From contig NZ_JAAVVB010000005.1 in NCBI RefSeq assembly GCF_018449775.1, positions 248,001-312,000 of the forward strand: a stretch of DNA of 64,000 nt, in the 5' to 3' direction. The stretch comes from Mucilaginibacter sp. dw_454. GTDB lineage: Bacteria > Bacteroidota > Bacteroidia > Sphingobacteriales > Sphingobacteriaceae. Position 1 is the stretch's first letter; every line of letters starts with the position of its first letter. The position numbers were made by a program, and so were the translations under genes. Positions 24,744-48,450 of the stretch are shown here, piece after piece. The notes beneath the pieces were generated by a model. It was given only the letters and a program-made list of their open reading frames with translations, did not search any database and was not told the DNA's origin.

Positions 24744-25702
24744 TACAAACGATTTGGGCTAAATTTATGTAGCCAGGCTATCAGGCTTTCGGGGAAATAA
24801 CTAAGCGCGTATAGCAGGTAATTCTCCAGTCGCAGTGGATAGATCTTGATAGCCTTATTAAAGTGGCCGCGGGCTCTTTCGGGCTGGTGGTTGTTGACCA
24901 GGAATTTTTTACCGCAAAGGGCATTGTAGGCAGCTTCTTTAATCTGCCGCACATCCTGGTCTTTAATGATAGCCAGCAGCTCGTTGCCTTCGGCAGCCGT
25001 GATGGTGCCGCGTAGTACGATCTCGCGCTTTAACTCGCGGAATCTGCGGCCGCGCCATTTTTCATCAATAGTAACCGAGGTAGAGTTAAGGCGATATTTA
25101 ATTAACGGCTCTGTGAGGTTACATAACCGGCCAGACCCGGCCAGTGCTGTCCATAATAAATAATCTTCGAAATTATGGGCCTGCGTTGGGTATCCGCCTG
25201 CTTCCAGCACGGCATCTTTGCGGTACATTACCGTTGGATGCACAAACGGACAATAAAAATATAGCTTATCCATCACCTGCTCATGCGAGTAGGCTATGCA
25301 ATGAAAATCAAACAGAAAGTCGCCGTTCTCTAAAATATATTTTACTTCGCTGCCTACCAGGATGTACTCGGGGTTGTCCTGCAAAAAACGGATCTGTTTT
25401 TCCAGTCGGTAAGGGTAACAAATGTCATCCGCATCAAAACGGGCTATATAGGCTGCGCGGGCATGTTTTAGACCAATATTCAAAGCCTCTGCAACACCAT
25501 GGTTAGATTGATTAACCACAACGATACGCTTATCATTAAAGCTGTTAATAATGTCCAGTGTGTTGTCGGTCGAGCCGTCGTTTACAATCAGCAGTTCAAA
25601 ATCTGTAAAGGTTTGCTGCAAAACAGAAGTAATAGCCTCGCTGATGTAGCGCCCGGCATTGTAAGCAGGCATTAAAACGGTTATGGCGGGTGTAGCAGTC
25701 AT
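24743..25702 (-). CDS. GT2-family glycosyltransferase
   Basis: 319 residues. GT-A fold features: ITVLMPAYNAGRYISEAITSVLQQ (about 7-30, in family style), LLIVNDGSTDNT, and the metal-binding FDADD. The middle of the protein carries the acceptor-site motif FEDYLLWTALA. An inverting transferase using a nucleotide sugar. Five bases separate its start from the stop of the upstream membrane protein gene. Confidence 0.93.
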   Translation of the reverse strand: MTATPAITVLMPAYNAGRYISEAITSVLQQTFTDFELLIVNDGSTDNTLDIINSFNDKRIVVVNQSNHGVAEALNIGLKHARAAYIARFDADDICYPYRLEKQIRFLQDNPEYILVGSEVKYILENGDFLFDFHCIAYSHEQVMDKLYFYCPFVHPTVMYRKDAVLEAGGYPTQAHNFEDYLLWTALAGSGRLCNLTEPLIKYRLNSTSVTIDEKWRGRRFRELKREIVLRGTITAAEGNELLAIIKDQDVRQIKEAAYNALCGKKFLVNNHQPERARGHFNKAIKIYPLRLENYLLYALSYFPESLIAWLHKFSPNRL

Positions 25703-25708
25703 AGTATT

Positions 25709-33950: not shown

Positions 33951-34871
33951 GTGAACGAGGCAAAAGAAAACATATTAGCTACCCTGGCGTATTTTGATAT
34001 CTTCAAATACCCGCTAACCAGTGGCGAAATATACCTGTTCCTGAAGGCTAAACACCCCCAGGCAGATTTTGATGCGGAGTTAAGGTATTTGGTTGCTCAT
34101 CAATTAGTTTATCAGTTTGGCAACCTCTACTCGCTCAAAAACGATTACGCTTTAATTGTTCGCCGTTACAATGGCAATCAAAAGGCTGCCGAGATGATTA
34201 AAGTCGCGCATAAAATTGGCGACTGGCTCATTCGTTTCCCTTATGTGCGTGGTATTGCTATTTCAGGCTCCTTGTCGAAAAATTATGCCGATGAAAATTC
34301 AGACATCGACCTGTTTATTATCACCGCAAAAAACCGTTTGTGGATAGCGCGCACCTTAATGCATGCCTTCAAAAAACTCACCTTCTTGGTTGGTAAAGAG
34401 GACTATTTCTGCATGAATTATTATATCGATGAAGATCAGTTGGAGATCAGGGAGAAAAACAACTATACCGCTGTTGAGGTTGTTACGCTGATTCCTTTGC
34501 AAGGTGATGCCGTAATTGAACAGTTTTATGCCGCCAATGCCTGGACGCGCGATTACTTGCCTAACAAGATCATGCGTATCTCGTCAGCCAAACCTTTAAA
34601 GCCTTCGATATTTAAAACGCTTTTTGAAAAGTTATTGAACAATCGTTTGGGTAACGCCATTGACACGTTGTTAATGAACATAACCTCCGGCCGGTGGAGC
34701 AAAAAAACCGAACAGAAAAAGGTTAATTCAAAGGGTGCAGTAATGGCTATGGACACCGGCAAACACTACGCCAAACCCGATCCGGGAAATTTCCAGGCAG
34801 GGCTGCTGGCCCAATACGAAAGCAAGATCTCGCAGATTATTGTAGAGCCGCAGAATTTGCTGGCGAATTAA
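33951..34871 (+). CDS. Nucleotidyltransferase-domain protein with N-terminal winged-helix-like region
   Basis: 306 residues from a GTG start. Residues about 5-65 look like a winged helix (FDIFKYPLTSGEIYLFL, YLVAHQLVYQFGNLYSLK). Residues 100-122 have the pol-beta-type nucleotidyltransferase signature GIAISGSLSKN...NSDIDLFI with Gly106-Ser107 and Asp118/Asp120 as metal ligands. Such proteins adenylylate small molecules, lipids or nucleic acids. It converges on the radical SAM cluster and is separated from it by a REP-like palindrome, so membership in the cluster is possible but unproven. Confidence 0.82.
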   Translation: MNEAKENILATLAYFDIFKYPLTSGEIYLFLKAKHPQADFDAELRYLVAHQLVYQFGNLYSLKNDYALIVRRYNGNQKAAEMIKVAHKIGDWLIRFPYVRGIAISGSLSKNYADENSDIDLFIITAKNRLWIARTLMHAFKKLTFLVGKEDYFCMNYYIDEDQLEIREKNNYTAVEVVTLIPLQGDAVIEQFYAANAWTRDYLPNKIMRISSAKPLKPSIFKTLFEKLLNNRLGNAIDTLLMNITSGRWSKKTEQKKVNSKGAVMAMDTGKHYAKPDPGNFQAGLLAQYESKISQIIVEPQNLLAN

Positions 34872-34884
34872 GACACTGCGTTTT

Positions 34885-34964
34885 TGTCATTGCGAGCGTA
34901 GCGTGGCAACCGCACGCGTTTAAGCTTTTCCCCTTGCGATTGCCGCGCTACGCTCGCAAAGACA
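34885..34964. repeat. REP-like palindrome (TGTCATTGCGAG type)
   Basis: Ends TGTCATTGCGAGCGTAGCG and CGCTACGCTCGCAAAGACA; one mismatch near the right end. It lies between the convergent nucleotidyltransferase and methyltransferase genes. Confidence 0.85.
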
Positions 34965-34985
34965 GTATTTTCATTATCCCGGCTC

Positions 34986-35807
34986 CTACTTCTTCCTTAA
35001 AGAAATAATATAATAATCTCCAATCCCTCGCCACGGCCAGCTAAATCGTACCTTATCCTCCCACTTTGTCAATAGACGATAGGCTTTTGGATGACGCTCT
35101 GCAAAATGCTCAATATAAGACGGCGGCACAATGGTGCATAACCCTTCTACCGACAAAACCTCCATCGCCCCATTAACCTGATCAATTACATACGACGGAT
35201 TATAGTACCAACAGGTAAAATAAGTACCCTCTACATGAGCCGTCACACCATTTTTACTAAACCAACGTCGCGTGGCTGTCTTAAACAGCCCTTTAAATAT
35301 CAATAGCGATTCCCATAAACAAAACTTCGGCAAAATAACCAGTGTGGCAATGCCGCCGGAATTTAATAAAGATGGAAGAGAATGCAGCACTTTATCGAGT
35401 TCGCCGGTACAATTTAGACCGGCAAAGTTCGAGAAGATCTGGTCGTAAGGACCTTTGTTTTTTAGTTCATCCAGGTGGGTGTAGGAGCAAAGCTCTGTTG
35501 AGATTGAATTACTTAAGCCGTAGCTTTCCGATTTTTCACGTAGCTTTTGCTGCATGCCTTCGGCGATGTCCGTAGCGTGTACTTTATGGCCCAGTGACGC
35601 AAAAAAAGTGGCGTCTTCGCCGGTACCGCTGTTTAATTCCAGGATAGACGAATTGGGTTTTAGGTTTTTTAAGACATGCGCCCGAACCCGCCCGCGTTTG
35701 TAGTTGACGATGGTGTTTGAGGAATAGATCTCATCAAAAATGGCCGACTGCGCCGAAAATGCTTCGGCGGCATGTTGCTCATTAATATGTGGCGCAACCG
35801 CTTCCAT
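34986..35807 (-). CDS. Class I SAM-dependent methyltransferase
   Basis: 273 residues. SAM-binding motif I ILELNSGTGEDATFFA (about 57-72), motif II KVHATDIAEGM, then DQIFSNFAGLNC. The C-terminal third (WSKNGVTAHVEGTYFTCWYYNP and onward) is a separate substrate-recognition part. Its start codon overlaps the stop of the upstream B12-type radical SAM gene (ATGA), so both are translated together. It is the last gene of the five-gene operon 34986-40561. Substrate unknown. Confidence 0.9.
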   Translation of the reverse strand: MEAVAPHINEQHAAEAFSAQSAIFDEIYSSNTIVNYKRGRVRAHVLKNLKPNSSILELNSGTGEDATFFASLGHKVHATDIAEGMQQKLREKSESYGLSNSISTELCSYTHLDELKNKGPYDQIFSNFAGLNCTGELDKVLHSLPSLLNSGGIATLVILPKFCLWESLLIFKGLFKTATRRWFSKNGVTAHVEGTYFTCWYYNPSYVIDQVNGAMEVLSVEGLCTIVPPSYIEHFAERHPKAYRLLTKWEDKVRFSWPWRGIGDYYIISLRKK

Positions 35808-37270
35808 CAGGCTTTTTCTAACTGATTTAATTTTAATCGCTCAATAAAAGTAGCCGGGGTATAATACAACACCGACAGCGCTTTTTTGACACTGTTGATC
35901 GACATGCATTGTGGTTCTTTCAATAGTTTAACCAGGCTATTTTTAGCCAGGTGCATATGGTAGTTTTTATGCACGTATTTATGTAGCTGCTTATAATAGC
36001 TAGGCGGAAAAGTATTGCTAAACATCAGCGCCATCTCGTCCGAGTCGGTCCAGTTGGTTTTTTTCTTCAGATCGGCTTTTACCCTATCATAAAATACGGT
36101 GCCGGGCAGTGGATACGAAACCGAAATTCCAATCTCAAACGGCAACAACTCGTTGATCATGTTAATGGTTTTGGCAATGTCGGTCTTATCCTCGCCGGGG
36201 TAACCAAACTGGATGAAGAACGAGGGCTTAATACCGGCATTTTTCATCGCTTTTGTGGCGACATGGATTTGATCTATCGTCGTGCCCTTATCCATGGCAT
36301 CCAGTATTTTTTGCGAACCGCTTTCGGCGCCTATCCATACATTTTCGCAGCCGGCGCGGGCCAGCGCGTCTACCTGGTCCTGCTCCACCAATAAATCGGC
36401 ACGCGATTGGATCTTGAACCTGGTACGCAAATTTTCCTGCTGCATCAGCTCGGCAAACTCCATCACCCAACCGGGCTTTAGTCCGAAGATATCATCGCAG
36501 AACCAAATATGATCTACCGGGAAATGCTCCTTCAGCATTTTCAATTCCTTGATCACATTTTGCGGGCTGCGCGAGTTGTAACGGTTGCCGTAAATAGGCT
36601 TGGCGCACCAGTTACATTTAAACGGGCAGCCACGGGTAGTCCCCATATTGATAGAGAAGTAACCGGCATTCTTTAACCAGCTATCGCGATAGGGTGCAAT
36701 ATCCACCAGATCCCAGGCCGGCAGCGGTAAGCTGTCCAAATCTTTTAAAACCGGGCGTGGCATAGTTTTTTTCGCCTTACCGTCAGTATCTAAATAAGAG
36801 ACGCCGGCTATGTGAGTGACATCTGTACCACCGGCTTTGATATGATTTGTCAGTTCCAACAATGTTTGTTCGGCTTCGCCAATCAGCACGTAATCGGCAC
36901 CGGCGTTCAGGTATTCTACGTAACGGTCGGTCGAGTCGGAGCTGGATACAATTACCGTGCACCCACGAGCCTTGGCCATCTTAAACATATCAAATGCGGC
37001 CTCGCGCATATTGGTGAGGCACATTTTGGTCAAGTAGTTAAAGCCGTCATCGTACGACACAAAAAAGTTGGGCCGGCTGCTGTCCAGCACCGGCTCAACC
37101 TCATGGGGATCGGCAACAAACATGGTATCAAACAGTGATACCTCGTATCCGTGTTCGCGCATCAGTGATGCGGCGTATATGGTACCCAGTGGCGCATACG
37201 GTTGCCCGATGGACCACTGCTTAGGGTCGAAACGTAAAAAGTAGGAGTGTGAAAAAAGTATCTTATTCAT
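35807..37270 (-). CDS. B12-binding-domain radical SAM enzyme (1)
   Basis: 487 residues. N-terminal cobalamin-binding-like Rossmann domain (about 20-150: APLGTIYAASLMREHGYEVSLFD in style, NAGADYVLIGEAEQTL) and radical SAM barrel (about 200-400) with the [4Fe-4S] motif Cys215-x3-Cys219-x2-Cys222 (RGCPFKCNWC). GAESGSQKILDAMDKG and QFGYPGE are typical of the BchE/HpnR-like subgroup. No DxHxxG cobalamin ligand is apparent, as in many members. Likely reaction: methylation at an unactivated carbon or phosphorus, or another radical transformation. Co-transcribed with two methyltransferases and two more radical SAM genes. Confidence 0.92.
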   Translation of the reverse strand: MNKILFSHSYFLRFDPKQWSIGQPYAPLGTIYAASLMREHGYEVSLFDTMFVADPHEVEPVLDSSRPNFFVSYDDGFNYLTKMCLTNMREAAFDMFKMAKARGCTVIVSSSDSTDRYVEYLNAGADYVLIGEAEQTLLELTNHIKAGGTDVTHIAGVSYLDTDGKAKKTMPRPVLKDLDSLPLPAWDLVDIAPYRDSWLKNAGYFSINMGTTRGCPFKCNWCAKPIYGNRYNSRSPQNVIKELKMLKEHFPVDHIWFCDDIFGLKPGWVMEFAELMQQENLRTRFKIQSRADLLVEQDQVDALARAGCENVWIGAESGSQKILDAMDKGTTIDQIHVATKAMKNAGIKPSFFIQFGYPGEDKTDIAKTINMINELLPFEIGISVSYPLPGTVFYDRVKADLKKKTNWTDSDEMALMFSNTFPPSYYKQLHKYVHKNYHMHLAKNSLVKLLKEPQCMSINSVKKALSVLYYTPATFIERLKLNQLEKA

Positions 37271-37273
37271 ATC

Positions 37274-38311
37274 CTATAAAGTAGCCATGGGCGACAGGTT
37301 TAAACTGCAAACGCATTTAACGCAGGTAGCATTTTTGCTCATATCCAGCGTGCGCCTAAAGTCTATCGCTTTGTTGGTGTTCAATATTTCTGTTAATGAG
37401 TTATCATGAATGTTCCCTATGGTATCATGAAAAAAGCAAGGCCGCACGCTGCCGTCGGCTTCGATGACGGTGGAGACCCACGGCGCATTGCATTTTTTAT
37501 AGGGAAAAGGGTTCAGCTTGTAAAAAGCCGCATAGTAGTTATAGATGTCCTTAATTTTAGCAGGCGATTCGGCGATATAACGACCATCAAAATCGGCGGT
37601 CTGCGCCAGCATGTTGTCAACCACTTCCTGCAGTTCGGGCAACTCGCGTTCGCTCAGCATTACCTCGTGTTGTTTTGGCTCGGCCCAGGCCGTTTGGCGA
37701 TTAAAGGCGTGGCTACTAACATCGGCAGGTAAAAAGCTGATCTGGTCTATACCCATAGCTTTAGCTGCCGCAATAATATTTGGCCAGTTGCGGAAATTGA
37801 TACGATGGATAACCGTACGCGCTGTAATGCGATAGGCGGGGTTAATCGCTTTGAGATGCTCCACACCTTCCTTCAGCTTTTTAAAGGCGTTGGGGATGTT
37901 GCGGATAGCATCATGCATAGGCTCGTCGCCATCCAGGGAGATCACAATATCATCTACCCATCTCAGCAGATCATCGGCATTATTTTTTAGCGACAGCCCG
38001 GTGCTGAGCAGGCTGATCTTGATATTGCACGATTTTAAGATCTTACAAAGCTCAAAGAAGTTGGTATTCAGCAACGCTTCACCACCCGACATCACCACTT
38101 GCCTGGTACCAAACTCTTTGAGTGCATTTAATAAGCCGCCAATGTGCTGCGGCGTTAGTTGTTTCAGATTTTTATTATCCTTCCAGATATCGCACATTAC
38201 ACAACGGCAGTTACAGGCGCTGTGCGGCATCAGTATCACCACCGGCAATGCCGATATGCGATGCGTTTGCAGCGTGCGGTAACGTTTATAGGTATGTGCT
38301 ATTGATTGCAT
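37274..38311 (-). CDS. Radical SAM enzyme with SPASM-like C-terminal cysteines
   Basis: 345 residues. The [4Fe-4S] motif is Cys33-x3-Cys37-x2-Cys40 in SACNCRCVMCDIW; MSGGEALLN is the SAM-binding GGE motif. The C-terminus has further cysteines (KKCNAPW, VRPCFFHD, CVKCVC), the pattern of SPASM/twitch domains that bind an auxiliary cluster. Members modify peptides, or carry out dehydrogenations and epimerisations on sugars. Three bases separate its end from the next gene downstream. No precursor-peptide gene is visible nearby, which favours a small-molecule or glycan substrate. Confidence 0.92.
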   Translation of the reverse strand: MQSIAHTYKRYRTLQTHRISALPVVILMPHSACNCRCVMCDIWKDNKNLKQLTPQHIGGLLNALKEFGTRQVVMSGGEALLNTNFFELCKILKSCNIKISLLSTGLSLKNNADDLLRWVDDIVISLDGDEPMHDAIRNIPNAFKKLKEGVEHLKAINPAYRITARTVIHRINFRNWPNIIAAAKAMGIDQISFLPADVSSHAFNRQTAWAEPKQHEVMLSERELPELQEVVDNMLAQTADFDGRYIAESPAKIKDIYNYYAAFYKLNPFPYKKCNAPWVSTVIEADGSVRPCFFHDTIGNIHDNSLTEILNTNKAIDFRRTLDMSKNATCVKCVCSLNLSPMATL

Positions 38312-38312
38312 G

Positions 38313-39047
38313 TTATTTAGTAATACTGACCCAGTAAAACGGATCTTTTTTAAACAGCCGGTTTAACAGGCTGCTGGGGTCAAACAATATTTTGTACTTA
38401 AATCCCCAAAACTCGCCGATGGAATGATGGAAATAATGGTCGGCCATTTCCGGTATCCCCATGTCGTTATAATAATTCCGGCATCTGTCCGCGGCCTCGG
38501 CAGCTTCATCGGCATCATAAAAAGGTGTATCAATGATATGGATCTCACCGCCGCGGTTCAGCAATTTTTCGGCCTGCCTTAATACCGATACTACCGACGA
38601 GAAGTACTGCAGCGTAGCCGCAAATACAATCACATCAAAACGCTCATTTTCGAAAGTATTCTCGTTAAAAGCATCGTACACAAACTCCAGGTTGGGTAGT
38701 TTAAAAACGCGGTTGGCCTGGTTAATTTCGGTCCTGTTAACATCAAGCCCGGTAACGTAGGTTTTTGGCAGGCCAGCCATCTTGGCCGATAGCCAGCCAT
38801 TGCCGCAACCTACCTCAAGTATCTTTAAAAATTTGCCCTTATCTCCCAAATAAGTCAGCAAGCGATTACTGGAGCGACGACGGATCTCCCACTCTTTAGA
38901 ATGGATGCTAAAATCGGGTAACGATTGCAGCTCGGCATCTGTATAAACTTTCTTTTCTTGTGTGCGCACGGCGCTATAAAGCTGCTCAAAATCCGGCTTG
39001 CGGGGTTTGGTTTGCTTAATGGCCTTATGTTGAGCACTGATGTCCAC
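38313..39047 (-). CDS. Class I SAM-dependent methyltransferase
   Basis: 244 residues. SAM site KILEVGCGNGWLSAKMAG (75-92) and motif DVIVFAATLQYFSSVVSVLRQAEKLLNRGGEIHIIDTPFY in family style. One base separates its stop from the start of the following SPASM-like gene. Middle of the five-gene operon; substrate unknown. Confidence 0.92.
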   Translation of the reverse strand: MDISAQHKAIKQTKPRKPDFEQLYSAVRTQEKKVYTDAELQSLPDFSIHSKEWEIRRRSSNRLLTYLGDKGKFLKILEVGCGNGWLSAKMAGLPKTYVTGLDVNRTEINQANRVFKLPNLEFVYDAFNENTFENERFDVIVFAATLQYFSSVVSVLRQAEKLLNRGGEIHIIDTPFYDADEAAEAADRCRNYYNDMGIPEMADHYFHHSIGEFWGFKYKILFDPSSLLNRLFKKDPFYWVSITK

Positions 39048-39058
39048 TTATTTAAAAA

Positions 39059-40561
39059 TTAAAATCCTTGTATTTCGGGTTGGCGATATTTCCAGATCCG
39101 TTGTAATAACTTGATCTCGTAAGGATATTTATGAAAGTTGATCTTGTAACGGAAAGTCGATATAGCTTTAATAGCCGCACGTTTCAGGCTATTCAGGCGG
39201 ATATCCGTTTCCGTTGGGAAAACGCCGTTCAGCACCACTTCAAAGTCCCTGATCTTATCAATCATTTCGGCCGTTAACCATGGGGTGAGCGGGTTCTTGC
39301 GCAAGTCGAAATTCTCCCAGGCCGGGCTTATCCAATCTTCCAATGTTTGGGGGAACTTAAAGCCGCTGGCCAGTACCTGTTTGTACATCTCAGAACCTTC
39401 GGTAGGTACCGGGCTGTAGGTATAAATAATAATTTCTGTTTTTGGGTTGATGGCTTTTACCTTTTTGATAAAATCTATCTCGAAATCAATCTGTGCCATT
39501 ACCTTTTCGGGCGTTGGTGCAGGCGTACCCAGTACGAAAGAATATTCGGGAATAATGTCGAATTTTTTCAAGCGCTCGGCAAATTCCAATATTTGTTTAC
39601 CGGTTTGGGTTCCGCCTTTATCCATCTGTTCCAGGATATCATCGTTCCCACTTTCGGCACCAAAAAAAATGATCTTGCAGCCGCCTTTACGAATAGTTTC
39701 CAGCGACGAGTCCTTAAACTTCATCATCGTATCTATCCGGGCCATGCCCCACCAGGTCATGTCCTCATGCTCCATTAATTTAGAAAACTCCACCGCGCGT
39801 TTTTCAGACACAAAGAAATTGTTGTCATGAAATTCTATCGCAGTAGCGCCATATTTATCTTTAATATGCTTGACGTCTTTATACGTATTTTGTGCTGATT
39901 TACCTTTCCAGCGTGCCTCATAAATAGGCACCACCGCGCAGAACGAACAAGTAAACGGACAGCCAATACTGGAGTGATAAGCCATCGTTTTTTCGCCCAG
40001 GTAGGTCTTACCCAAAAATTTAGGGATAGGATACATGGTATTCAGTTTATCGTAAGGCAATGGCGGTAGCGAGTCCTGGTCTAATAAATCCTCTTTGGCT
40101 GTCTTAACAATCTGGCCGTTGGTACCCACATAGATCAGGTTACGGATAAACTCATAAGGCTCGTCTTTTTCCAAAGCATCTACCAGGTTGGGGAAAGCGT
40201 TATCGCCGGGGCCGTTAATAATGAAATCGACAAAATTTGAATACAGCACCGACTCAGAGTGATTAGAAGGAAAGTAACCACCCCAGATCATTTTGGTATG
40301 CGGATGCTTTAGTTTAACCGCTTTAGCAGCAATAATAGCCTGCCTTAACTGCGGGCCGGGCATTACGGTAAATCCCAGGTATTTGTATTCGCCTGTATCC
40401 ACGTATGACATGATCTTTGCTATCGGATCGGCCTCGCAATTACCATCAACAATCACCCAATCATACTTGCCCTCTACAGCAGCAGCAATATTCAGGATAG
40501 AGTTAGGTATCCGGTATTTGGCATTAGCGCTTTTGGGGTTAAACAATAATATCTTGTTCAT
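39059..40561 (-). CDS. B12-binding-domain radical SAM enzyme (2)
   Basis: Start at ATG 40561 (500 residues) because MNKILLFNPKSANAKYRIP is the typical opening of these enzymes; an in-frame extension to 40675 has no family similarity. Cobalamin-binding-like N-terminal domain (about 5-150; IWGGYFPSNHSESVL), then the radical SAM motif Cys201-x3-Cys205-x2-Cys208 (IGCPFTCSFC) and FFGAESGNDDILEQMDKGG. Only distantly similar to the enzyme at 35807, so the two probably act at different steps. First gene of the operon; the 207-base divergent promoter region has an 11-bp palindrome. Confidence 0.92.
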   Translation of the reverse strand: MNKILLFNPKSANAKYRIPNSILNIAAAVEGKYDWVIVDGNCEADPIAKIMSYVDTGEYKYLGFTVMPGPQLRQAIIAAKAVKLKHPHTKMIWGGYFPSNHSESVLYSNFVDFIINGPGDNAFPNLVDALEKDEPYEFIRNLIYVGTNGQIVKTAKEDLLDQDSLPPLPYDKLNTMYPIPKFLGKTYLGEKTMAYHSSIGCPFTCSFCAVVPIYEARWKGKSAQNTYKDVKHIKDKYGATAIEFHDNNFFVSEKRAVEFSKLMEHEDMTWWGMARIDTMMKFKDSSLETIRKGGCKIIFFGAESGNDDILEQMDKGGTQTGKQILEFAERLKKFDIIPEYSFVLGTPAPTPEKVMAQIDFEIDFIKKVKAINPKTEIIIYTYSPVPTEGSEMYKQVLASGFKFPQTLEDWISPAWENFDLRKNPLTPWLTAEMIDKIRDFEVVLNGVFPTETDIRLNSLKRAAIKAISTFRYKINFHKYPYEIKLLQRIWKYRQPEIQGF

Positions 40562-40673
40562 CTTTCGGTCTTGATGGTAAAATAATGGCAGCGGGCCCTG
40601 CAACCCACCACCATTAAGAGAAACTAATTCTACAATTACACAATTATCACAAGAGTTACGCCCCTCGTAAAAC

Positions 40674-40716
40674 AAAGGTTGCCCCCTATCCTAAATAAAA
40701 TGACAGGGCAACCTTT
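40674..40716. promoter_or_regulatory. Inverted repeat in the divergent promoter region of the radical SAM cluster
   Basis: Perfect 11-bp arms AAAGGTTGCCC (40674-40684) and GGGCAACCTTT (40706-40716) around 21 bases, in the only intergenic space shared by the two divergent operons. It could be an operator for coordinated control or a leader hairpin for one operon. The octamer AGCTATAG occurs twice just to its right (40717 and 40740). Confidence 0.5.
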
Positions 40717-40768
40717 AGCTATAGCAGTTCGTAATTGAAGCTATAGGTCATTAATTAATTTGTCAGTC

Positions 40769-41554
40769 ATGAGTACTTCTATAGCGCCCCCTAAAACCGT
40801 AAGCAGCCTGGTATCGGCTTTTAAAAAGTTGATGCATTTAGGTGGCAGCCCGGTACAGGAAAAACCATCTGCCGAAGCTTATGACATCTGGGCCGAGAGC
40901 TATGACGTACAGCCCGGCAACCTGATGATTGATATGGATGAAGAGGTATTTGGGGAGCTGCTGGCAGAACTAAACCTCAAAGGCAAACAAGTGGCCGATA
41001 TTGGCTGCGGCACCGGCAGGCACTGGCCAAAGCTTTTTAAAAGCGAGCCGGCTACGCTAACCGGGTTCGATGTATCGGCAGGGATGCTGCGCCGCCTGGA
41101 AGAGAAATTCCCCCAGGCTAAAACCTACCAGATCACCGACAATTTTTTTAAAGATATCGCCGATGCCAGTTATGACGCAATTGTGTCGACATTAACTGTG
41201 GCTCACATCGAGAACCTGGAAGAAGCATTAGATGCCTGGTGCCGTATGCTGAAGCCTGATAGCGATATCATTATTACCGATTTTCACCCCAATGCTTTGG
41301 CCTTTGGCGGCAAGCGTACTTTCAAGCATAACAGCGACAGCATATCCATTCAAAACTTTGTGCATTACGTTTATGATATTGAGCGGATGCTTGCCAAGCA
41401 CGGTTTCAGAACGGTTAATAAACTGGAGAAGATCATTGACGAATCTGTAAAGCACTATTACGAGGCCAAGAACGCCTTGCCGGTTTATGAGAAATTTAAG
41501 GATGCCCGCATTATCTACGGCATTCATTTAACACGAAGCCATGATTCTGCGTAA
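40769..41554 (+). CDS. Class I SAM-dependent methyltransferase
   Basis: Start at ATG 40769 (261 residues); a TTG three codons earlier is less likely. SAM site VADIGCGTGRHWPKLF (75-90), then GFDVSAGMLRRLEEKFP and STLTVAHIENLEEALDAWCRML in family style. It starts the plus-strand operon 40769-45729 and overlaps the amidohydrolase gene by 14 bases. Third methyltransferase of the cluster; the small-molecule type (UbiE/COQ5-like) rather than rRNA type. Confidence 0.9.
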   Translation: MSTSIAPPKTVSSLVSAFKKLMHLGGSPVQEKPSAEAYDIWAESYDVQPGNLMIDMDEEVFGELLAELNLKGKQVADIGCGTGRHWPKLFKSEPATLTGFDVSAGMLRRLEEKFPQAKTYQITDNFFKDIADASYDAIVSTLTVAHIENLEEALDAWCRMLKPDSDIIITDFHPNALAFGGKRTFKHNSDSISIQNFVHYVYDIERMLAKHGFRTVNKLEKIIDESVKHYYEAKNALPVYEKFKDARIIYGIHLTRSHDSA

Positions 41555-42665
41555 TGTTACTACGATCACCGGTAAGGGTACCACTGACATCCATCTGAAA
41601 AATGGCAAAATGATGCCCTTTGGTGAAGTTACGCCCGTTACCCTGCAGCTTGATCTTGACGGAGCGCTGGCCTTTCCTGGCCTGGTGAACTCGCACGACC
41701 ATTTAGACTTTAACCTTTTCCCGCAGCTGGGCGATAAGATCTATCATAACTATACCGAGTGGGGCGACTATATCCACGCCAAATATAAAAAGGAGATCAA
41801 TGCTGTTTTGAAAGTTCCGCTACCCTTACGCGTAAGCTGGGGGATTTTCAAAAACCTGCTGTGCGGGGTAACCACGGTAGTGAATCATGGCGAACACCTG
41901 GCTATTAAAGATGCTCCCATTAATGTAGAGCAGGGGCATAGCATTCACTCCGTGCAGTTTGAAAAGTTGTGGAAACTAAAGCTAAACAATCCACTTAAAC
42001 GCGGACTGCCGGCGGTGATTCATGTAGGCGAAGGTGTTGACGAGCTGGCGCATACCGAAATCGATCAGTTAAATAGCTGGAACTTATTGCGTAAAGAGCT
42101 GATTGGCATACATGGTATCGCGATGAGCGAGGAGCAGGCGAAGTATTTTAAAGCGCTGATTTGGTGCCCGGAGTCGAACTATTTTATGTTTAATAAAACT
42201 GCTAAGATAGATCAGCTAAAAAAACATACCACCATACTTTTTGGTACCGACTCTACGCTTACCGGTAACTGGAACATCTGGGATCATATCCGCCTGGCGC
42301 GTAAAACCAATATGCTAACCGATGCCGAGCTGTACAGCGCCGTGCACCTGGGCGGTACCACCAGTTGGACAACCGATGCCGCCAATCAAGACACTATCGT
42401 CATTACCAAAAGAAAGCCGGATACCGATGCCTTTGAATCGTTTTACACCAACGATCCGGCTGATGTATTATTGGTAGTTCATCATGATTGTATTCGTTTA
42501 TTCGACGCTTCGCTGTTAGCGCAATTAGGTCAAATTGATCTTGGAAAATTCAGTAAGGTTTATATCGGTGGCAGCTGTAAATTTATTGAAGGCGACTTGC
42601 CGGGCCTGATGCGGCAGATTAAAACCTATTACCCTGAAGCGGTTTTCCCGGTATCTGCTAATTAA
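41541..42665 (+). CDS. Amidohydrolase-superfamily protein (chlorohydrolase/deaminase-like)
   Basis: 374 residues. Metal-site motif HDHLDFN with His52 and His54, then VNHGEH, VIHVGEG, GIHGIAM and FGTDSTLTGNW with the catalytic Asp near residue 253, in the order seen in the AtzF/cytosine-deaminase-type amidohydrolases. It should hydrolyse a C-N bond (deamination or amide/ring opening). It overlaps the preceding methyltransferase gene, so coordinated translation is likely. The substrate is probably an intermediate of this cluster. Confidence 0.88.
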   Translation: MILRNVTTITGKGTTDIHLKNGKMMPFGEVTPVTLQLDLDGALAFPGLVNSHDHLDFNLFPQLGDKIYHNYTEWGDYIHAKYKKEINAVLKVPLPLRVSWGIFKNLLCGVTTVVNHGEHLAIKDAPINVEQGHSIHSVQFEKLWKLKLNNPLKRGLPAVIHVGEGVDELAHTEIDQLNSWNLLRKELIGIHGIAMSEEQAKYFKALIWCPESNYFMFNKTAKIDQLKKHTTILFGTDSTLTGNWNIWDHIRLARKTNMLTDAELYSAVHLGGTTSWTTDAANQDTIVITKRKPDTDAFESFYTNDPADVLLVVHHDCIRLFDASLLAQLGQIDLGKFSKVYIGGSCKFIEGDLPGLMRQIKTYYPEAVFPVSAN

Positions 42666-42671
42666 TCAATT

Positions 42672-43679
42672 ATGGATACCGTTCAAAAAATCAAGTCAAG
42701 GCTAAGCCGCGAGTACAAATTATTTCGCCGCGATGTACGCTATGCCTTGGGTTTGGATGAAAATTTTTACCAAAATGCCCGCGGGAGCCGGATCTTGATC
42801 TATCACGGTATCTGCCAAAAAGATCATACCCGTTTTAACCCCATTTTTTTAACTGAGCGGACGTTCGAACAGCATTTAAAACTCTATAAAAAGTATTGCA
42901 ATGTAGTTTCGTTAGATGATTATTATGCGGGTAAATTCAATCCGGATAAATTCAACATCTGCCTGACTTTTGATGACGGTTTTGCCAATAACCACAAATA
43001 TGTATTGCCGCTGATTGAGCGCTACCAAATGCCTGCTACCTTTTTTATCACCGGTATTGCCAATGATGGTTACGATATTTTGTGGAACGATTTTCTGGGT
43101 ATTGTGAGCAAGTTCGGTCCGCAGCAAATTAGTTGCGATGGCGAGCAATATTATAAGGGCCAATATGATCATTATACCTCCATTGTAAACCAGGTTACCC
43201 TGCGCGATCAATTGCGTGCCACCGGTTTTGGCCCAAAGGCCGGGATGATGAATGAGCTTTATCCGCTGGCGCCATTTAAAGCCGATCCGGAGCAGACAGA
43301 TTACTGGCTGCAAATAACACCGGCACAAATTAAGGAACTGGCAGCCTCGCCATATGCTACTATTGGCGCGCACGGTTATTACCATAATGACCTGGCGCGG
43401 ATAAGCTTGGCGGATGCTCTAAATGAGCTAACAAAGGTTAAACAATATCTTGAAAGCCTGCTTGCAAAGCCCGTTAACAGCATTGCTTTTCCTTATGGCA
43501 GTTATAATGCCAATGTGATTAACGCGGCCAAAAAAGCTGGCTACAACCAATTGCTGGCCATGGATTTTAATAACAGCACCGATTCGATGGATGATACGCT
43601 GCGCGAGCGCCTTACCGTGAACCCGTTTATATCGCCCATTAACCAACTATATGCTACGATAACTTGCAAATATGATTAG
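42672..43679 (+). CDS. NodB-type polysaccharide deacetylase family protein
   Basis: 335 residues, no evident signal peptide. NodB homology: ILIYHGI (41-47), CLTFDDGFANNH with the catalytic/metal Asp101-Asp102, ATFFITG, and the metal histidines in GAHGYYHNDL (about residue 235). C-terminal SIAFPYGSYN is the last motif. CE4 enzymes remove N-acetyl groups from amino sugars. A cytoplasmic location would fit deacetylation of a lipid- or nucleotide-linked intermediate before export. Its end overlaps the next gene by 8 bases. Confidence 0.92.
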   Translation: MDTVQKIKSRLSREYKLFRRDVRYALGLDENFYQNARGSRILIYHGICQKDHTRFNPIFLTERTFEQHLKLYKKYCNVVSLDDYYAGKFNPDKFNICLTFDDGFANNHKYVLPLIERYQMPATFFITGIANDGYDILWNDFLGIVSKFGPQQISCDGEQYYKGQYDHYTSIVNQVTLRDQLRATGFGPKAGMMNELYPLAPFKADPEQTDYWLQITPAQIKELAASPYATIGAHGYYHNDLARISLADALNELTKVKQYLESLLAKPVNSIAFPYGSYNANVINAAKKAGYNQLLAMDFNNSTDSMDDTLRERLTVNPFISPINQLYATITCKYD

Positions 43680-44619
43680 CCCAACCGACACGTTATTAAT
43701 TGAACGATTAAGCCCCGAAAATCTGGCAGACCTGGCCGCGCTGCATCAGGCGGTTTACCAGCGCAGCCCGGCACCCGACTATTTCCCGAAGAAATATGAT
43801 ACCGCCTATACCGGCGCAAAATACATGGGTTATCTGGCCTATAATGAGGCGCTGCAGCCCGTTGCTTTTTATGGGGTGATACCTACCTTGCTTTGGCACG
43901 AAGGTAAAAGTTTGCTGGCCGCACAGTCGGCAGATACCATGACGCATCCTGGTTATCGGGGCTTGGGCTTGTTTGTGCGCTTAGCTAATCACACCTATAC
44001 CTTATGCAAACTGGAAGGCGTACGTTTGGTATTTGGTTTTCCTAATCAAAACTCATTGCCGGGTTTCCTGAATAAATTGAACTGGCACTGTACCGAAATT
44101 ATGGAGCACTTTGAAGTGCCGGTAAAGCCAATGTTTTCCCTTGAAAAAATTGCCGGTAAGTTTCCATCGCTGCAACCGGCATATCGCCATTACCAGCAAC
44201 GGGTTTTGAAACCCTATTTACGGGCGGTACCGGGCATCGCTAATTCTGTGGTGGCCGAGGGTTTTAATGGCGTTTTCAGGGACGATCAATATTTGAAGTA
44301 TAAAGCTTATTCAGACACACAGGTTATTCAAGTAGATCGATCCTTGTTTTGGATTAAATTGAAGAACGGTTTACACATTGGCGACATCAGCAATGTAGAA
44401 ACTGATTTTGATACGACATTGAAAAAGTTACAACGTTTGGCAGGCAAACTGGGTGTTTCTGTTATACGCTTTCAAACCAGCCCGGGAACCAATTTGCATC
44501 GGTTGTTTGCTGCGCGTTTCGAGCCGCTGCCAACTTATCATATTATATTTAAACCGATTGATGACGGCATAGCTACCGACCGGATCAAATTTACTTTTGC
44601 CGATATTGATGTATTTTAA
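43672..44619 (+). CDS. GNAT-like N-acyltransferase
   Basis: 315 residues. The middle part has the GNAT acyl-CoA region: LLAAQSADTMTHPGYRGLGLFVRLA (about 83-107) with the P-G-Y-R-G-L-G loop that replaces the canonical Q/RxxGxG/A, preceded by VAFYGVIPTLLW. The C-terminal half resembles the second lobe of two-lobed acetyltransferases. It could re-acylate the amino group freed by the deacetylase encoded just upstream, with which it overlaps by 8 bases. Acyl donor unknown. Confidence 0.85.
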   Translation: MISPTDTLLIERLSPENLADLAALHQAVYQRSPAPDYFPKKYDTAYTGAKYMGYLAYNEALQPVAFYGVIPTLLWHEGKSLLAAQSADTMTHPGYRGLGLFVRLANHTYTLCKLEGVRLVFGFPNQNSLPGFLNKLNWHCTEIMEHFEVPVKPMFSLEKIAGKFPSLQPAYRHYQQRVLKPYLRAVPGIANSVVAEGFNGVFRDDQYLKYKAYSDTQVIQVDRSLFWIKLKNGLHIGDISNVETDFDTTLKKLQRLAGKLGVSVIRFQTSPGTNLHRLFAARFEPLPTYHIIFKPIDDGIATDRIKFTFADIDVF

Positions 44620-44631
44620 ATCAGCCAGCAT

Positions 44632-45729
44632 ATGCACTACGTTTCACTAAGTTATGGCTATGACCCAACGTTCAACGCGCCGCTGCCCTGGCTGGAGCGG
44701 GTGAGAGCGTACGGTGGCGTACTATCTGCACTGGCTAAGCATGGCAAAGTATCCCACATTGTGCAGATTGATTATGAGGGGGTTTATGCACATGAAGGTG
44801 TAGATTATCACTTTGTAAATTATGGCGATGATCTGGCGCTGTTTCCAAACCGGCTGCATCAGTTGGTTAAGAGTTTGAAGCCCGATGTAGTGATAGTACA
44901 CAGTTTTAATTACCCATTGCAGGTAAAACAATTGCGGCTGGCACTGTCTTTCTCGATGCCCATCATCGTACAAAACCACGCCGAGAAACCGGCTTTTGGT
45001 GCCAGAAAAATATTACAGCGCATAGCCGATAAATGGATCGACGCTTACTTCTTTGCCTCCAGGAGCATGGGTTTGGATTGGGTGACCAAAGGCAACTTAT
45101 CATCGCCAAATAAAATACATGAAGTGATGGAGTTATCCTCTATATTTTATCCTATCGACAGGGCCGAGGCGCGGGCCGAAACAGGCATCGACGCCGAGAA
45201 AGCCTATTTATGGGCGGGCCGGTTGGATGAAAATAAGGACCCCATCACCGCCATTAAAGCCTTCCTGAAATTTGCGGAAACTACCCCGGGAGCACGGCTT
45301 TACATGCTCTATCATGAGCACGAAATATTATCGCAGGTAGAACAGTTATTAAGCCAGGCGCCAAATGCTGACGCCATCAAACTGGTAGGAAAGATCCCTA
45401 ATGATGATATGCTATACTGGTTTAACAGTGTCGATTTCTTTATCGCCGCATCTTACTATGAAGGCAGCGGCACGGCAGTCTGCGAGGCGATGTCTTGCGG
45501 ATGTATCCCGGTAATATCTGATATTCACTCTTTCCGGATGATTACTGATAATGGCAACATTGGTCTGCTGTTTCCGCCGGGTAATGATGAAAAATTATTG
45601 GCCGCACTGCATCAAACACAAATGCTCGATGTCGCTATCGAACGTGAAAAAGCTTTAGCTTATTTTAAGTCGACTTTATCCTTCGAGGCTATCGCTCAAA
45701 AAATTCATGACATTGCCTCTTCGCTGTGA
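44632..45729 (+). CDS. GT4-family glycosyltransferase
   Basis: 365 residues, GT-B fold. N-terminal half starts MHYVSLSYGYDPTFNAPLPWL; C-terminal half has AGRLDENKDPITAIKAFL, LVGKIPNDDMLYWF and SYYEGSGTAVCEAMSCG with the two GT4 glutamates. Last gene of the plus-strand operon; its final 25 bases overlap the convergent GT4 gene. Presumably transfers a sugar onto the cluster product. Confidence 0.93.
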   Translation: MHYVSLSYGYDPTFNAPLPWLERVRAYGGVLSALAKHGKVSHIVQIDYEGVYAHEGVDYHFVNYGDDLALFPNRLHQLVKSLKPDVVIVHSFNYPLQVKQLRLALSFSMPIIVQNHAEKPAFGARKILQRIADKWIDAYFFASRSMGLDWVTKGNLSSPNKIHEVMELSSIFYPIDRAEARAETGIDAEKAYLWAGRLDENKDPITAIKAFLKFAETTPGARLYMLYHEHEILSQVEQLLSQAPNADAIKLVGKIPNDDMLYWFNSVDFFIAASYYEGSGTAVCEAMSCGCIPVISDIHSFRMITDNGNIGLLFPPGNDEKLLAALHQTQMLDVAIEREKALAYFKSTLSFEAIAQKIHDIASSL

Positions 45730-46781
45730 AGCACGGGCCGATACAGCTCCATTATAGCTTCCGCCATTTGGGTTACACTTTGGATCAATACCGGTTCGTG
45801 ATCGCGGTTCTCATCCATCAAAATATTTAGCGTGGTTTGCGCCATCTCGTTAACATCGGCCACCACATAATGATGATCGAAAGATTTCTTCATCGGCTTT
45901 AAAAAAGAGATGAGATGTGCACCGGCATATAATGATTCCAGCAATACTGTACCAAAACCTTCATAGGCCGATGGATGCAGGAACACTTTAGTGCGCTGCA
46001 TCATGGCCAACGTTTCGGCGTGTGTTATCTCGCCGGTAAATTCTATGTTATCCTCTAAACCATATTGCCTAACCAGGGCCAGCAGGTTATCAAGCTCGGG
46101 GCCTTTGCCGCAAAGCACCGCCCTTACGTTGGGATATCGGGTCTTGACCATTTTAACGGTTTCTACCAACAGGTGATATTGTTTTAGCGGGATCAAAAAG
46201 CCGGCGCCTAAAATATCAATATCGCGCTTGGCCGGGGGCGTACCATACATTGCCGGATTAATGCCGCTGGCTACCAAATGCTGCGGCGCAAATCCGTAGT
46301 TCTTTTCAAACTCATCAATTAAAAACTGTGACAGCGCGATCAGGTTACTGCCATCGGCGCTGATACGGTGCACAAAGCGATTACCCGCGCGTGCGTCCTG
46401 CCCCAGTATCCAGGCGTAGTTTGGCAGCTTATATCTTTCGGAGAACATATGAGCAATAAAAGCGCATTCATCCAGCCAAAAACTCAGCAGGCCAATCACT
46501 TCGTTCTCCTTATGGAGTTGTTTTAACTTTTTCCAGGCCCTATACCAGATTACGCGTCGCGGAACGCCGCCTTTACCCTTACCACCCAGGGCAATGATCC
46601 TGATACCTTCCCAATAGTACTCGCGCGATTGAAACGGGTACTGGAAAGATAGCACCACGATATTCAAATCAGGATAAGTATCGCGCAGCACGCGCAAAAA
46701 TATCTGCCTGTCGGGCAGGCAGGTGGTATCAGCTTCGTTTTCGGGGAAACCCGGGGTCAATATAATTAAGGTATTACGCAT
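45705..46781 (-). CDS. GT4-family glycosyltransferase
   Basis: 358 residues from ATG 46781 (MRNTLIILTPGFPENEADTT); an ATG four codons earlier at 46793 is possible. C-terminal GT-B site: DILGAGFLIPLKQYHLLV, VLCGKGPELDNLLALV, and HPSAYEGFGTVLLESLYAG. The start overlaps the end of the ABC transporter gene, so the two form one unit. A CTGCCTG-TCGGG-CAGGCAG palindrome lies inside the gene at 46704-46722, encoding CLPDRQ. Confidence 0.92.
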   Translation of the reverse strand: MRNTLIILTPGFPENEADTTCLPDRQIFLRVLRDTYPDLNIVVLSFQYPFQSREYYWEGIRIIALGGKGKGGVPRRVIWYRAWKKLKQLHKENEVIGLLSFWLDECAFIAHMFSERYKLPNYAWILGQDARAGNRFVHRISADGSNLIALSQFLIDEFEKNYGFAPQHLVASGINPAMYGTPPAKRDIDILGAGFLIPLKQYHLLVETVKMVKTRYPNVRAVLCGKGPELDNLLALVRQYGLEDNIEFTGEITHAETLAMMQRTKVFLHPSAYEGFGTVLLESLYAGAHLISFLKPMKKSFDHHYVVADVNEMAQTTLNILMDENRDHEPVLIQSVTQMAEAIMELYRPVLHSEEAMS

Positions 46782-48450
46782 AAACGGCCGCATTAGGGGT
46801 TATCACTTTATCACAAAAATCAAGGCTGCCGGTATTATGGGTTATCAATATCACCATTTTACCCTCGCGGCTTAGTTGTTTAAGCTGGCCTAAGATCTCA
46901 CGTTCAGACTGCTCATCCATTTCCGAGAACGCCTCGTCCAAAATCAGCAAATCAAAATCATGGTAAAGCGCGCGGGCCAGCATCAGGCGCTGCCGTTGCC
47001 CGCCGCTTATATTTTTACCGTGTTCGCGGATAAATTCATTCACACCATCGGTATAGCTGTTCACCAATTCATCTAATCCGCAGAAACTGATCACACCTTG
47101 TAGTCTTTGCAAATTATAAGGTTCATCGCTCAGCGTTATGTTTCTGGCCAGTGTATCGTTAATAATAAACGATTGCTGCTTAACGTACGACACCCGGCTT
47201 AAAAAGCCCTGCCTTTTGATCCAATTGGTTCGGGCATCATTAAACAAAATATTGCCTTTGTGATGCTTTAAAAAGCCAAGCATCAGTTGGATCAGCGTGG
47301 TCTTCCCTTTGCCCGACGCTGCAGATAATCCTACAAAGTCGCCCGACTTGATCTTGAACGTCAGGTTGTTTAAAATATACTGGCTATTGTACCTGAACTT
47401 TACATGATCGAAGAAAATTGATTGCAATGGGACTAGCTCATCCACAATCGGGATGTGTTTGTCGGCAGGCTGCAGGTCGGTTATGTTGAAACTATAGGTT
47501 TTGATCTGGCTGGTGCTGTTCAGTATTTTGATAATGCCGGGGATAATTTTATAACTGGCCGCCATAAATACACCGATGGTGAGCAAGCTGACTGCCGGTG
47601 TTCCTGACGAAAATTTATTGATAGCGATGAGCACAAAAAAGCCCATGATGGCAAATACTTCTACTAGCCGCGAGGTTAAGCCCTGCAGCGTTTGTTGGGT
47701 AGCGATGTTGTTGTTGAGCTGTAATTGCTGTTGATGATACCTACCCACAAAAAAATCATCCTTGCGGTACACGTTGCTTTCTATATAACCTTCTAAAGAT
47801 TCCTTTAAATGCTGGATAACTTTCTGACTTACGGCCCGGCTATTATCGCGAATGGCCCTTAATTTATTGCGGATAAAATTAGCCAGTACCACCACCGGGG
47901 GTAGCAACAAAACCAACAGCATAAAAAACAAGTCGGGGTGCCAGAGCAGTACGCCTGCCATAGTAACCAATATTAAAATGGCCTGCGATATGACCTGCTG
48001 CACATTGGTGAGGATATAATTGCTAAATTCAATAGGTTGATTGCTGATACGGCGAATGAGTACGGACGAGTCGGTATTAACAAAGCGCAGGTAATCGTCT
48101 TTTAAATAAGTTTGGATGTTACGCTTAGATAAGCGCGAAGCAACCCCATAAAAAAAGTCTTGCTGCGCGCCCGAGTTGCGATAGCCCAACCAGTTTTTCA
48201 AGCCGAACAGTACCAAAAACACGCCGATAAATAAAAGCGAATTGCGATTCAATAAAGCGGCAGGCAAAAACGACAAAGTTGCCGGTTCCTGACTGCGGAT
48301 GTAGAAGTTGATCACTACCAACATCATCCCTAAAAAAACAACATCAAGCACACCCATAACCAGGTCGGCTATGATGAGCCACGTCAGTTTTGACTTCTCC
48401 CCCGGGTCAAGGATTTTCAGGATGCCGTTTATGATCTGTTTTAAGTTCAA
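46774..48450 (-). CDS. ABC exporter, fused membrane and ATPase domains (flippase-like)
   Basis: 558 residues: a six-helix membrane domain (about 15-320) and an ATPase domain with Walker A ASGKGKTTL (about 375), Q-loop VKQQ, signature ISGGQRQRLMLARAL, Walker B LLILDEAF and the switch His in THNTGS. Architecture matches half-size type IV exporters such as MsbA and the lipid-linked-oligosaccharide flippase PglK. With a glycosyltransferase as the downstream partner it most probably flips the lipid-linked product of the neighbouring cluster across the inner membrane. Confidence 0.92.
   Translation of the reverse strand: MNLKQIINGILKILDPGEKSKLTWLIIADLVMGVLDVVFLGMMLVVINFYIRSQEPATLSFLPAALLNRNSLLFIGVFLVLFGLKNWLGYRNSGAQQDFFYGVASRLSKRNIQTYLKDDYLRFVNTDSSVLIRRISNQPIEFSNYILTNVQQVISQAILILVTMAGVLLWHPDLFFMLLVLLLPPVVVLANFIRNKLRAIRDNSRAVSQKVIQHLKESLEGYIESNVYRKDDFFVGRYHQQQLQLNNNIATQQTLQGLTSRLVEVFAIMGFFVLIAINKFSSGTPAVSLLTIGVFMAASYKIIPGIIKILNSTSQIKTYSFNITDLQPADKHIPIVDELVPLQSIFFDHVKFRYNSQYILNNLTFKIKSGDFVGLSAASGKGKTTLIQLMLGFLKHHKGNILFNDARTNWIKRQGFLSRVSYVKQQSFIINDTLARNITLSDEPYNLQRLQGVISFCGLDELVNSYTDGVNEFIREHGKNISGGQRQRLMLARALYHDFDLLILDEAFSEMDEQSEREILGQLKQLSREGKMVILITHNTGSLDFCDKVITPNAAVYA

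Follow-up and report, generated by a model that had tools for sequence, protein, structure and literature searches.

A candidate surface-glycan biosynthesis system with a radical SAM tailoring core in Mucilaginibacter and other Bacteroidota

Sugars are the substrates of the radical S-adenosylmethionine (SAM) enzymes GenK, GenD1 and MoeK5. As far as the excerpt of PMC8992657 goes, GenK and GenD1 are class-B radical SAM methylases of gentamicin synthesis and MoeK5 is one of moenomycin synthesis, and in the class-B group the uncharacterised members far outnumber the characterised ones. In fosfomycin synthesis, according to an excerpt of PMC8158854, Fom3 acts on a nucleotidylated (cytidylylated) substrate, 2-HEP-CMP, and the possible likeness of the Fom1/Fom3 pair to the genes described here lies in the making of a nucleotidyl-bearing substrate for a B12 radical SAM methylase. 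These genes are found in a window of 64,000 nucleotides (the whole stretch of DNA that was analysed) from the 4.7 Mb genome of Mucilaginibacter sp. dw_454 (contig NZ_JAAVVB010000005.1, positions 248,001 to 312,000), where a pol-beta-type nucleotidyltransferase (NT), a radical SAM enzyme with a B12-type domain (B12a) and a class I SAM methyltransferase (MT_A) stand beside further tailoring, glycosyltransferase and export genes. Judging from gene content and conservation, it is likely that they belong to an accessory surface-glycan or exported-glycolipid biosynthesis system of Bacteroidota with a radical SAM tailoring core. The gene set is real, conserved and apparently uncharacterised, larger than an earlier note on this DNA had drawn it and with a different core; no title or abstract opening describing it was found among the papers listed from the open-licence literature (subscription papers being outside the scope).

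NT (33951-34871, plus strand) has its nucleotidyltransferase domain (PF01909, 25 bits, cut-off 21) preceded by about 90 N-terminal residues, and it is followed on the minus strand by MT_A (34986-35807, classified by Pfam) and B12a (35807-37270, Pfam Radical_SAM and AlphaFold2 model). B12a is of the same broad enzyme class as MoeK5, GenK and GenD1, set side by side with them by class and not by sequence; unlike them, it is tied to NT, MT_A and glycan assembly genes. We know of no nucleotidyltransferase partner for MoeK5, GenK or GenD1, nor of a pol-beta one for the fosfomycin enzyme. The Fom1 transferase has another fold than NT, and the Fom1/Fom3 pair differs also in its phosphonate substrate and in having no glycan context. 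The context of B12a resembles that of the Wzx/Wzy and PglK/MsbA loci, which agrees with the inference of the earlier note that the cluster makes and exports a glycoconjugate, with glycosyltransferases, a Wzy/ligase-type protein, an MsbA/PglK-like ATP-binding cassette (ABC) exporter and, in relatives, a Wzx-type protein; unlike the Wzx/Wzy loci, the cluster has no nucleotide-sugar synthesis gene and has six SAM-dependent tailoring enzymes.

The distribution of the genes was followed in a phylum sample of 395 Bacteroidota genomes from 170 genera (thresholds E 1e-100 for B12a and for a second B12-type enzyme, B12b, E 1e-50 for the amidohydrolase AHase and E 1e-15 for NT) and in a family sample of 121 genomes at the level of the Sphingobacteriaceae, with 13 same-genus genomes among those listed. 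B12a is carried by 27 of the 395 genomes (21 of the 170 genera), and NT is present in 28, which are all of the 27 carriers plus one genome (G239) with a weak match. The two genes are at most 5 kb apart in 27 of 27 carriers and at most 500 bp apart in 19, with a hypergeometric co-occurrence value of 6e-41, a value that ignores phylogeny, shared ancestry and transfer. NT, which the earlier note had placed at the flank of the cluster, has thus to be moved into its core. A B12a profile scan of GTDB genomes gave at least 594 stretches, of which 548 contain a relative when the threshold is E 1e-3. The locus counts given below rest on the best 80 of these at least 594 stretches, cut at 10 kb or at contig ends, and were made with tblastn; together with the window, the 80 loci form a set of 81 neighbourhoods, from which a long subset of 59 (at least 20 kb, window included) was used for counts of clustered open reading frames (ORFs). 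MT_A has a tblastn match in 80 of 80 loci (a clustered ORF in 77) and NT in 62, and in the long subset B12a and MT_A are present in 59 of 59 and NT in 47. From the genomes of the 12 long neighbourhoods in which NT is absent, 11 have one strong NT match elsewhere.

The NT family has the features of the pol-beta superfamily, with a Pfam NTP_transf_2 score above the cut-off in the window and the D-x-D catalytic pair. A match to NTP_transf_2 was obtained for 22 of 23 members (E up to 0.5), and the D-x-D pair is present in 19 of 19 aligned proteins, while the preceding G-S varies (GG, GE or GQ in some). In G136 (L129), the NT match contains one TGA, perhaps as a decayed or frameshifted copy.

Three gene fusions join members of the core to each other or to glycosyl transfer. 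In G218, B12a and MT_A are one protein of 727 aa, with the B12a profile matching residues 1-442 and that of MT_A residues 465-723, and both domains are seen by Pfam. A GT4 glycosyltransferase carries a C-terminal NT domain in G503 (residues 376-610, 90 bits) and in G239 (residues 377-588, 64 bits), Pfam detecting the GT4 part and the NT part being detected by the profile built in this analysis. Also, a GT4 gene adjoins NT in G200 and G291. Because NT is present in 27 of 27 carriers and MT_A in 80 of 80 loci, and because of the B12a-MT_A and GT4-NT fusions, NT, B12a and MT_A form one core unit.

The gene set is conserved together across genera, to which belong, among the best 80 stretches, Mucilaginibacter, Pedobacter, Dyadobacter, Ferruginibacter, Taibaiella and Terrimonas, in agreement with the conservation across genera that the earlier note had named as support. 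The proteins nearest to the B12a of the window are from Mucilaginibacter, with at most 87% identity. Six of the 121 genomes of the family sample carry B12a, and the same six carry AHase; five of the six are among the 13 listed genomes of the same genus. The locus of Dyadobacter, of the Spirosomataceae, nests in the Sphingobacteriaceae part of the B12a tree and its gene order matches, which suggests a transfer of the locus, the closest fork being weakly supported (88/63). Correlations between protein distance matrices (0.49 to 0.90), in which species relatedness was not controlled, were given no weight. Spread on plasmids was considered and dropped, since a search at E 1e-30 gave one Rhizobium match of 29% identity, and so was spread on viruses, where only remote relatives were found (23-36% identity, 80 of 182 matches). 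Several genomes (L131, L132, L135, L139, L140, L142) have a second, divergent copy of B12a, mostly adjoining MT_A.

The AlphaFold2 model of B12a, with a predicted local distance difference test (pLDDT) score of 79, contains the B12-type N-terminal Rossmann domain, followed by the radical SAM barrel, which is the architecture of the class-B enzymes (matches over residues 1-487). Its fold matches OxsB, AprD4, TsrM and MgmA with Z 22.9-24.6, and C215, C219 and C222 of the CxxxCxxC motif are invariant in an alignment of 23 rows. By its fold, B12a is therefore assigned to the B12-type enzymes, with putative cobalamin binding. As the four matches lie within 2 Z units, the fold does not discriminate between methylation, dehydration and ring contraction. 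One of the tied-best matches is the radical SAM diol dehydratase AprD4 (6fd2; Z 24.6, root-mean-square deviation 3.8, 405 aligned residues, 20% identity), the substrate of which is paromamine; unlike the members of the AprD4 family, B12a scores 83.8 bits against a cut-off of 500. AprD4 works with a dehydrogenase partner, AprD3, which has no recognised counterpart in this cluster. The product had been called multiply methylated in the earlier note, and this is plausible, but the B12a fold also performs other radical chemistry, with AprD4 as the example. No NCBIfam family cut-off was reached by B12a (25 strongest of 28 families) or B12b (19 families), and the expectation that the radical SAM enzymes are not named housekeeping families holds in that none reaches the cut-off of the families compared.

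The glycan assembly genes extend beyond the interval of the earlier note (33951-48450), which was drawn too narrowly. A block on the minus strand at 21300-27358 belongs to the system as well, as its neighbourhood in relatives shows; it consists of an O-antigen ligase/polymerase-type membrane protein (WzyL, 21300-22559, PF04932), a DUF1972/GT4 glycosyltransferase resembling the rhamnosyltransferase Cps2T (GT_c, 22540-23703, PF09314; NCBIfam Cps2T 207 bits, under the cut-off of 500), a GT4 glycosyltransferase (GT_d, 23661-24743, PF00534), a GT2 glycosyltransferase (24743-25702, PF00535) and a polytopic membrane protein of about 9 transmembrane (TM) segments by hydropathy without Pfam or NCBIfam family (mem549, 25709-27358), perhaps a polymerase or membrane glycosyltransferase. 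The block adjoins NT in 4 of the 5 first relatives, with the exceptions that GT_c is unassigned in G089 and that a single ORF covers GT_c and GT_d in G116. In the window it lies about 6.6 kb from NT, behind ordinary genes for an alcohol dehydrogenase, elongation factor P, DUF1501 and DUF1800 proteins and aat, and one further gene that is presumably ruvC. Closer to the core, the window has the glycosyltransferases GT4a (44632-45729, plus strand, PF00534) and GT4b (45705-46793, minus strand, PF00534) and the ABC exporter (46774-48450, minus strand, PF00005, about 6 TM segments), for which MsbA is the best NCBIfam match with 200 bits, followed by CydD and PglK with 175 bits each, all under the cut-off. 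The combination of a polymerase/ligase-type protein (PF04932) with glycosyltransferases (PF00534, PF00535) is that of a Wzx/Wzy-type locus. By tblastn, GT4a is found in 57 of the 80 loci, GT4b in 47, WzyL in 43, mem549 in 41 and the ABC exporter in 34, and GT4a is present in 50 of the 59 long neighbourhoods; a Wzx-type cluster (PF01943) occurs in 28 related neighbourhoods and a PF02397-type sugar transferase cluster in 9. The genome of the window has three PF02397 genes elsewhere. In the family sample, mem549 is found in 5 of 121 genomes, exactly the five same-genus carriers of B12a.

The surroundings of NT were inspected in 8 of the 11 genomes that have it away from the B12a neighbourhood, and the block is beside NT in 6 of the 8, while G506 and G507 have NT without that block. 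In those six, NT is accompanied by WzyL, GT_c, GT2, mem549 and a Wzx-type gene, with GT_d recognised in 2. The block lies on the contig of B12a but about 0.26, 1.8 and 1.9 Mb away from it (G512, G515 and G510, respectively), on another contig in G511 and G514, and only about 15 kb from B12a in G508. From these NT/Wzy/GT blocks outside the B12a neighbourhood, it follows that the assembly genes and the radical enzyme genes occur together even where they are separated in the genome. In distant or variant loci, GT87, GT9 and PMT_2 glycosyltransferases are found; these loci keep the glycan theme but predict different products. In L158, a c39-like polytopic membrane protein without Pfam match (11951-13516, 522 aa, about 8 TM segments) lies between SPASM and B12a, the position of a PMT_2-type protein in other genomes. 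Additionally, G014 (L015:1942-4692) has just past the ABC exporter a gene of 917 aa with adenylation, carrier and thioesterase domains, similar to a non-ribosomal peptide synthetase (NRPS), which perhaps attaches an aminoacyl or acyl group to the product of that strain.

The remaining tailoring genes, namely B12b, SPASM, MT_B, MT_C, AHase and the PDA/GNAT pair, are by their occurrence add-ons to the core. On the minus strand, these are the SPASM-domain radical SAM enzyme (37274-38311, Pfam Radical_SAM and SPASM), the class I SAM methyltransferase MT_B (38313-39047, Pfam) and B12b (39059-40561, with the ORF open to 40675; Radical_SAM and B12-binding), and on the plus strand the class I SAM methyltransferase MT_C (40760-41554, Pfam), usually paired with AHase (41541-42665), the NodB-type polysaccharide deacetylase PDA (42672-43679, PF01522) without evident signal peptide, and a GNAT-type acyltransferase (43672-44619, PF13527). 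All genes of the earlier note are open reading frames where it had placed them, with the overlapping or nearly touching arrangement that it described (MT_A and B12a share one base, and PDA and GNAT overlap by 8 bases); protein classes were assigned from Pfam and from NCBIfam bit-score cut-offs, and Pfam supports every class it had listed except the amidohydrolase, which is backed by weak NCBIfam matches and the predicted fold. By tblastn, SPASM is found in 71 of the 80 loci, B12b in 66, AHase in 55, MT_C in 52, MT_B in 49, GNAT in 24 and PDA in 22, and the corresponding ORFs in the 59 long neighbourhoods are 54 for B12b, 53 for SPASM, 50 for AHase, 46 for MT_C, 41 for MT_B, 24 for GNAT and 22 for PDA. 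The earlier note had regarded genes scattered or individually variable in relatives as speaking against it; the add-ons, the position of NT and the position of the Wzy/GT block do vary, and the co-occurrence of the core holds.

B12b reaches the Pfam B12-binding cut-off. Since its homologues have a median length of 500 aa, it most likely starts at 40561 and not at 40675, and the first 38 codons of its ORF in the window look like a spurious extension. B12b is present in 17 of the 395 genomes, all of them B12a carriers, and lies at most 20 kb from B12a in 16 of the 17, the remaining one being on another contig. In the usual position of B12b, L099 has a gene with a Pfam sulfatase match (7023-8768). 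The profile matches of the SPASM protein are SkfB (its best match in the PDB), BlsE and an anaerobic sulfatase maturase.

AHase has no Pfam match at E 0.001, and its NCBIfam matches are weak and all under the cut-off. Its AlphaFold2 model (pLDDT 89) has as best match the adenosine deaminase 4gbd_B (Z 33.8, root-mean-square deviation 2.8, 336 aligned residues), and H52, H54, H161, E164, H191 and D237 are invariant across 26 rows; these are presumably the metal and catalytic residues (the HxH, H, E, H, D set). Based on this model and on the weak NCBIfam matches, AHase is clearly an amidohydrolase of the adenosine/methylthioadenosine (MTA)/S-adenosylhomocysteine (SAH) deaminase and TRZ/ATZ group. 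It shares fold and catalytic residues with the deaminases TM0936 and 4gbd, from which it differs in the low identity (12-18% among the rows listed), in having no Pfam match and in being found in B12a carriers only (among the 395 genomes). AHase is present in 10 of the 395 genomes and lies at most 20 kb from B12a in 10 of 10; within the 81 neighbourhoods, AHase is in 55 and MT_C in 52, with both in 51. It could serve the removal of SAH and 5'-deoxyadenosine or act on a cluster intermediate, and its restriction to carriers fits both. PDA and GNAT are found in 23 and 25 of the 81 neighbourhoods, respectively, and GNAT is present in 23 of the 23 neighbourhoods with PDA. Because PDA has no transmembrane or signal-like segment by hydropathy, its deacetylation is probably cytosolic. 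The N-acyl editing proposed in the earlier note stands insofar as the pair exists, but it is optional among the 81 neighbourhoods and therefore cannot define the product. In 23 of the 81 neighbourhoods, a conserved protein without Pfam match (c18, about 306 aa) is encoded close to GT4a, AHase or GNAT (e.g., L069:2211-3128).

In the proposed pathway, glycosyltransferases would assemble a short glycan attached to a lipid carrier in the cytosol, where the tailoring would also take place, and the tailored substrate would be a lipid- or nucleotide-linked glycan, which is then polymerised and exported. B12a and MT_A may act successively on the same sugar, given that they are fused in one genome. B12a would carry out a radical reaction at an unactivated carbon (C-methylation most likely, otherwise dehydration), and MT_A an O- or N-methylation. 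B12b and SPASM would modify other positions, PDA and GNAT, where present, would exchange an N-acyl group, and AHase would deaminate a cluster intermediate or clear SAH and 5'-deoxyadenosine from the many SAM enzymes. The finished unit would be flipped and then polymerised or ligated. As NT is tied to glycosyl transfer by the fusions, it most likely attaches a nucleotidyl group to the sugar or carrier, as a handle or an activated donor; this is the least certain step and a speculative one. Here it is tentatively proposed, as an idea that is rather doubtful, that these genes make up a new glycan-tailoring machine, in which the glycosyltransferase-linked NT tags a sugar or a lipid-linked glycan; B12a and MT_A would recognise the substrate by this tag, or use the tagged sugar as an activated form, to rebuild an unactivated C-H position and so yield C-methylated or carbon-edited repeating units in a surface polysaccharide. 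In a still bolder variant, the radical enzyme would leave a deoxyadenosyl adduct on the glycan, to be deaminated by AHase, the fold of which includes aminofutalosine deaminase.

The mixture of radical SAM enzymes, methyltransferases, deacetylase/acyltransferase, glycosyltransferases and ABC exporter is also known from pathways of small oligosaccharide antibiotics, and an aminoglycoside- or tunicamycin-like product, with the ABC protein as its exporter and NT as the self-resistance nucleotidyltransferase, would agree with the likeness of B12a to AprD4 (Z 24.6) and with the match of one of 23 NT-family members to streptomycin adenylyltransferase, which is insignificant (E 0.043). This reading is unlikely, as Wzy/ligase-, mem549- and Wzx-type membrane proteins accompany the system, two of the fusions join NT to a glycosyltransferase and no aminocyclitol synthase was found among the window genes scanned. 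A modification of hopanoids or other membrane lipids, by ring contraction and deacetylation of a glycolipid as with HpnJ and HpnK, is hardly probable; HpnJ (TIGR03471) is the best NCBIfam match of both B12a (147.3 bits) and B12b (103.7 bits), and a deacetylase and glycosyltransferases are present, but the HpnJ cut-off of 577.6 bits is far above both scores, the deacetylase is optional and the genome of the window has no squalene-hopene cyclase domain (PF13243), in a search for which the control was positive in 2 of 14 known genomes. The scores under the cut-off and the absence of PF13243 led to this reading being disfavoured.

SPASM enzymes often act on peptides, and since SkfB ranks first among the PDB profile matches of the SPASM protein, a pathway for a ribosomally synthesised and post-translationally modified peptide, in which the radical SAM and SPASM enzymes modify a small precursor, has to be weighed. 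However, the gaps of the 81 neighbourhoods contain 1732 small ORFs (20-149 aa), of which one family alone recurs in at least 4 loci, namely in 14, with the four members inspected at the far end of their stretches, and the context is one of glycosyltransferases and membrane proteins. With no recurring small ORF in the core (ORFs overlapping larger ones left out), such a peptide pathway was disfavoured and is scarcely credible here; the earlier argument from missing genes is borne out in this respect and in that no NRPS or polyketide synthase gene is among the window genes scanned. An anti-phage defence island, acting by surface modification or by viperin-like nucleotide-analogue immunity, has a very slim chance of being the explanation. 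The SPASM protein matches pVip models with 50 and 47 bits, MT_A matches mad2 with 48, B12a matches PDC-M51A with 38 and NT matches PDC-S09 with 18, and the locus is unevenly spread, with 5 carriers among the 13 same-genus genomes listed; but the matches are partial, as generic radical SAM, methyltransferase and nucleotidyltransferase domains would give, 4 of the 8 proteins scanned have none, and the glycan may block phages as a consequence and not as a dedicated mechanism.

Several observations weigh against the biosynthesis of a surface glycan or exported glycolipid by one tailored system. Pfam finds in B12a the radical SAM core only, without a B12-binding match, and NT has no significant homologue among solved structures by sequence. 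No initiating sugar transferase was found among those window genes that were scanned (a part of all its genes), nor was a Wzx. G021, the sixth B12a carrier of the family sample, is without mem549, and the B12a-carrying metagenome assembly of L095 gave no NT match when the whole genome was searched. The distant loci L136, L138 and L144 have NT, B12a and MT_A but no glycosyltransferase by the profiles used, their neighbours not having been scanned with Pfam. G239 has an MT_A-like gene (63 bits) and no B12a profile match in its stretch of 12 kb, so that an NT-like domain need not be accompanied by a recognisable B12a; G239 may be a divergent form or a separate use of the NT domain. Finally, the add-on genes differ from one relative to the next, and a single product is therefore not to be expected.

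With these reservations, the proposed glycan system is compact, can be tested as a unit and is found in 21 of the 170 sampled genera of the phylum. It probably makes chemically unusual surface sugars, of possible relevance to biofilms, phage receptors and the discovery of enzymes. If true, radical C-H chemistry would be built into surface polysaccharide synthesis, and a nucleotidyltransferase would be its obligatory partner. Which genes must be expressed together can be read from the co-occurrence, from the three fusions and from the split NT/Wzy/GT blocks.

No cobalamin riboswitch was found in the window, where only two tRNAs reach the gathering score. These are two adjacent tRNA-Cys (gca) genes at 8026-8097 and 8109-8181, 11 bases apart. 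The window also encodes, at 49159-50664, a protein of 501 aa without Pfam match, which has a hydrophobic N-terminus and two halves that look similar by eye.

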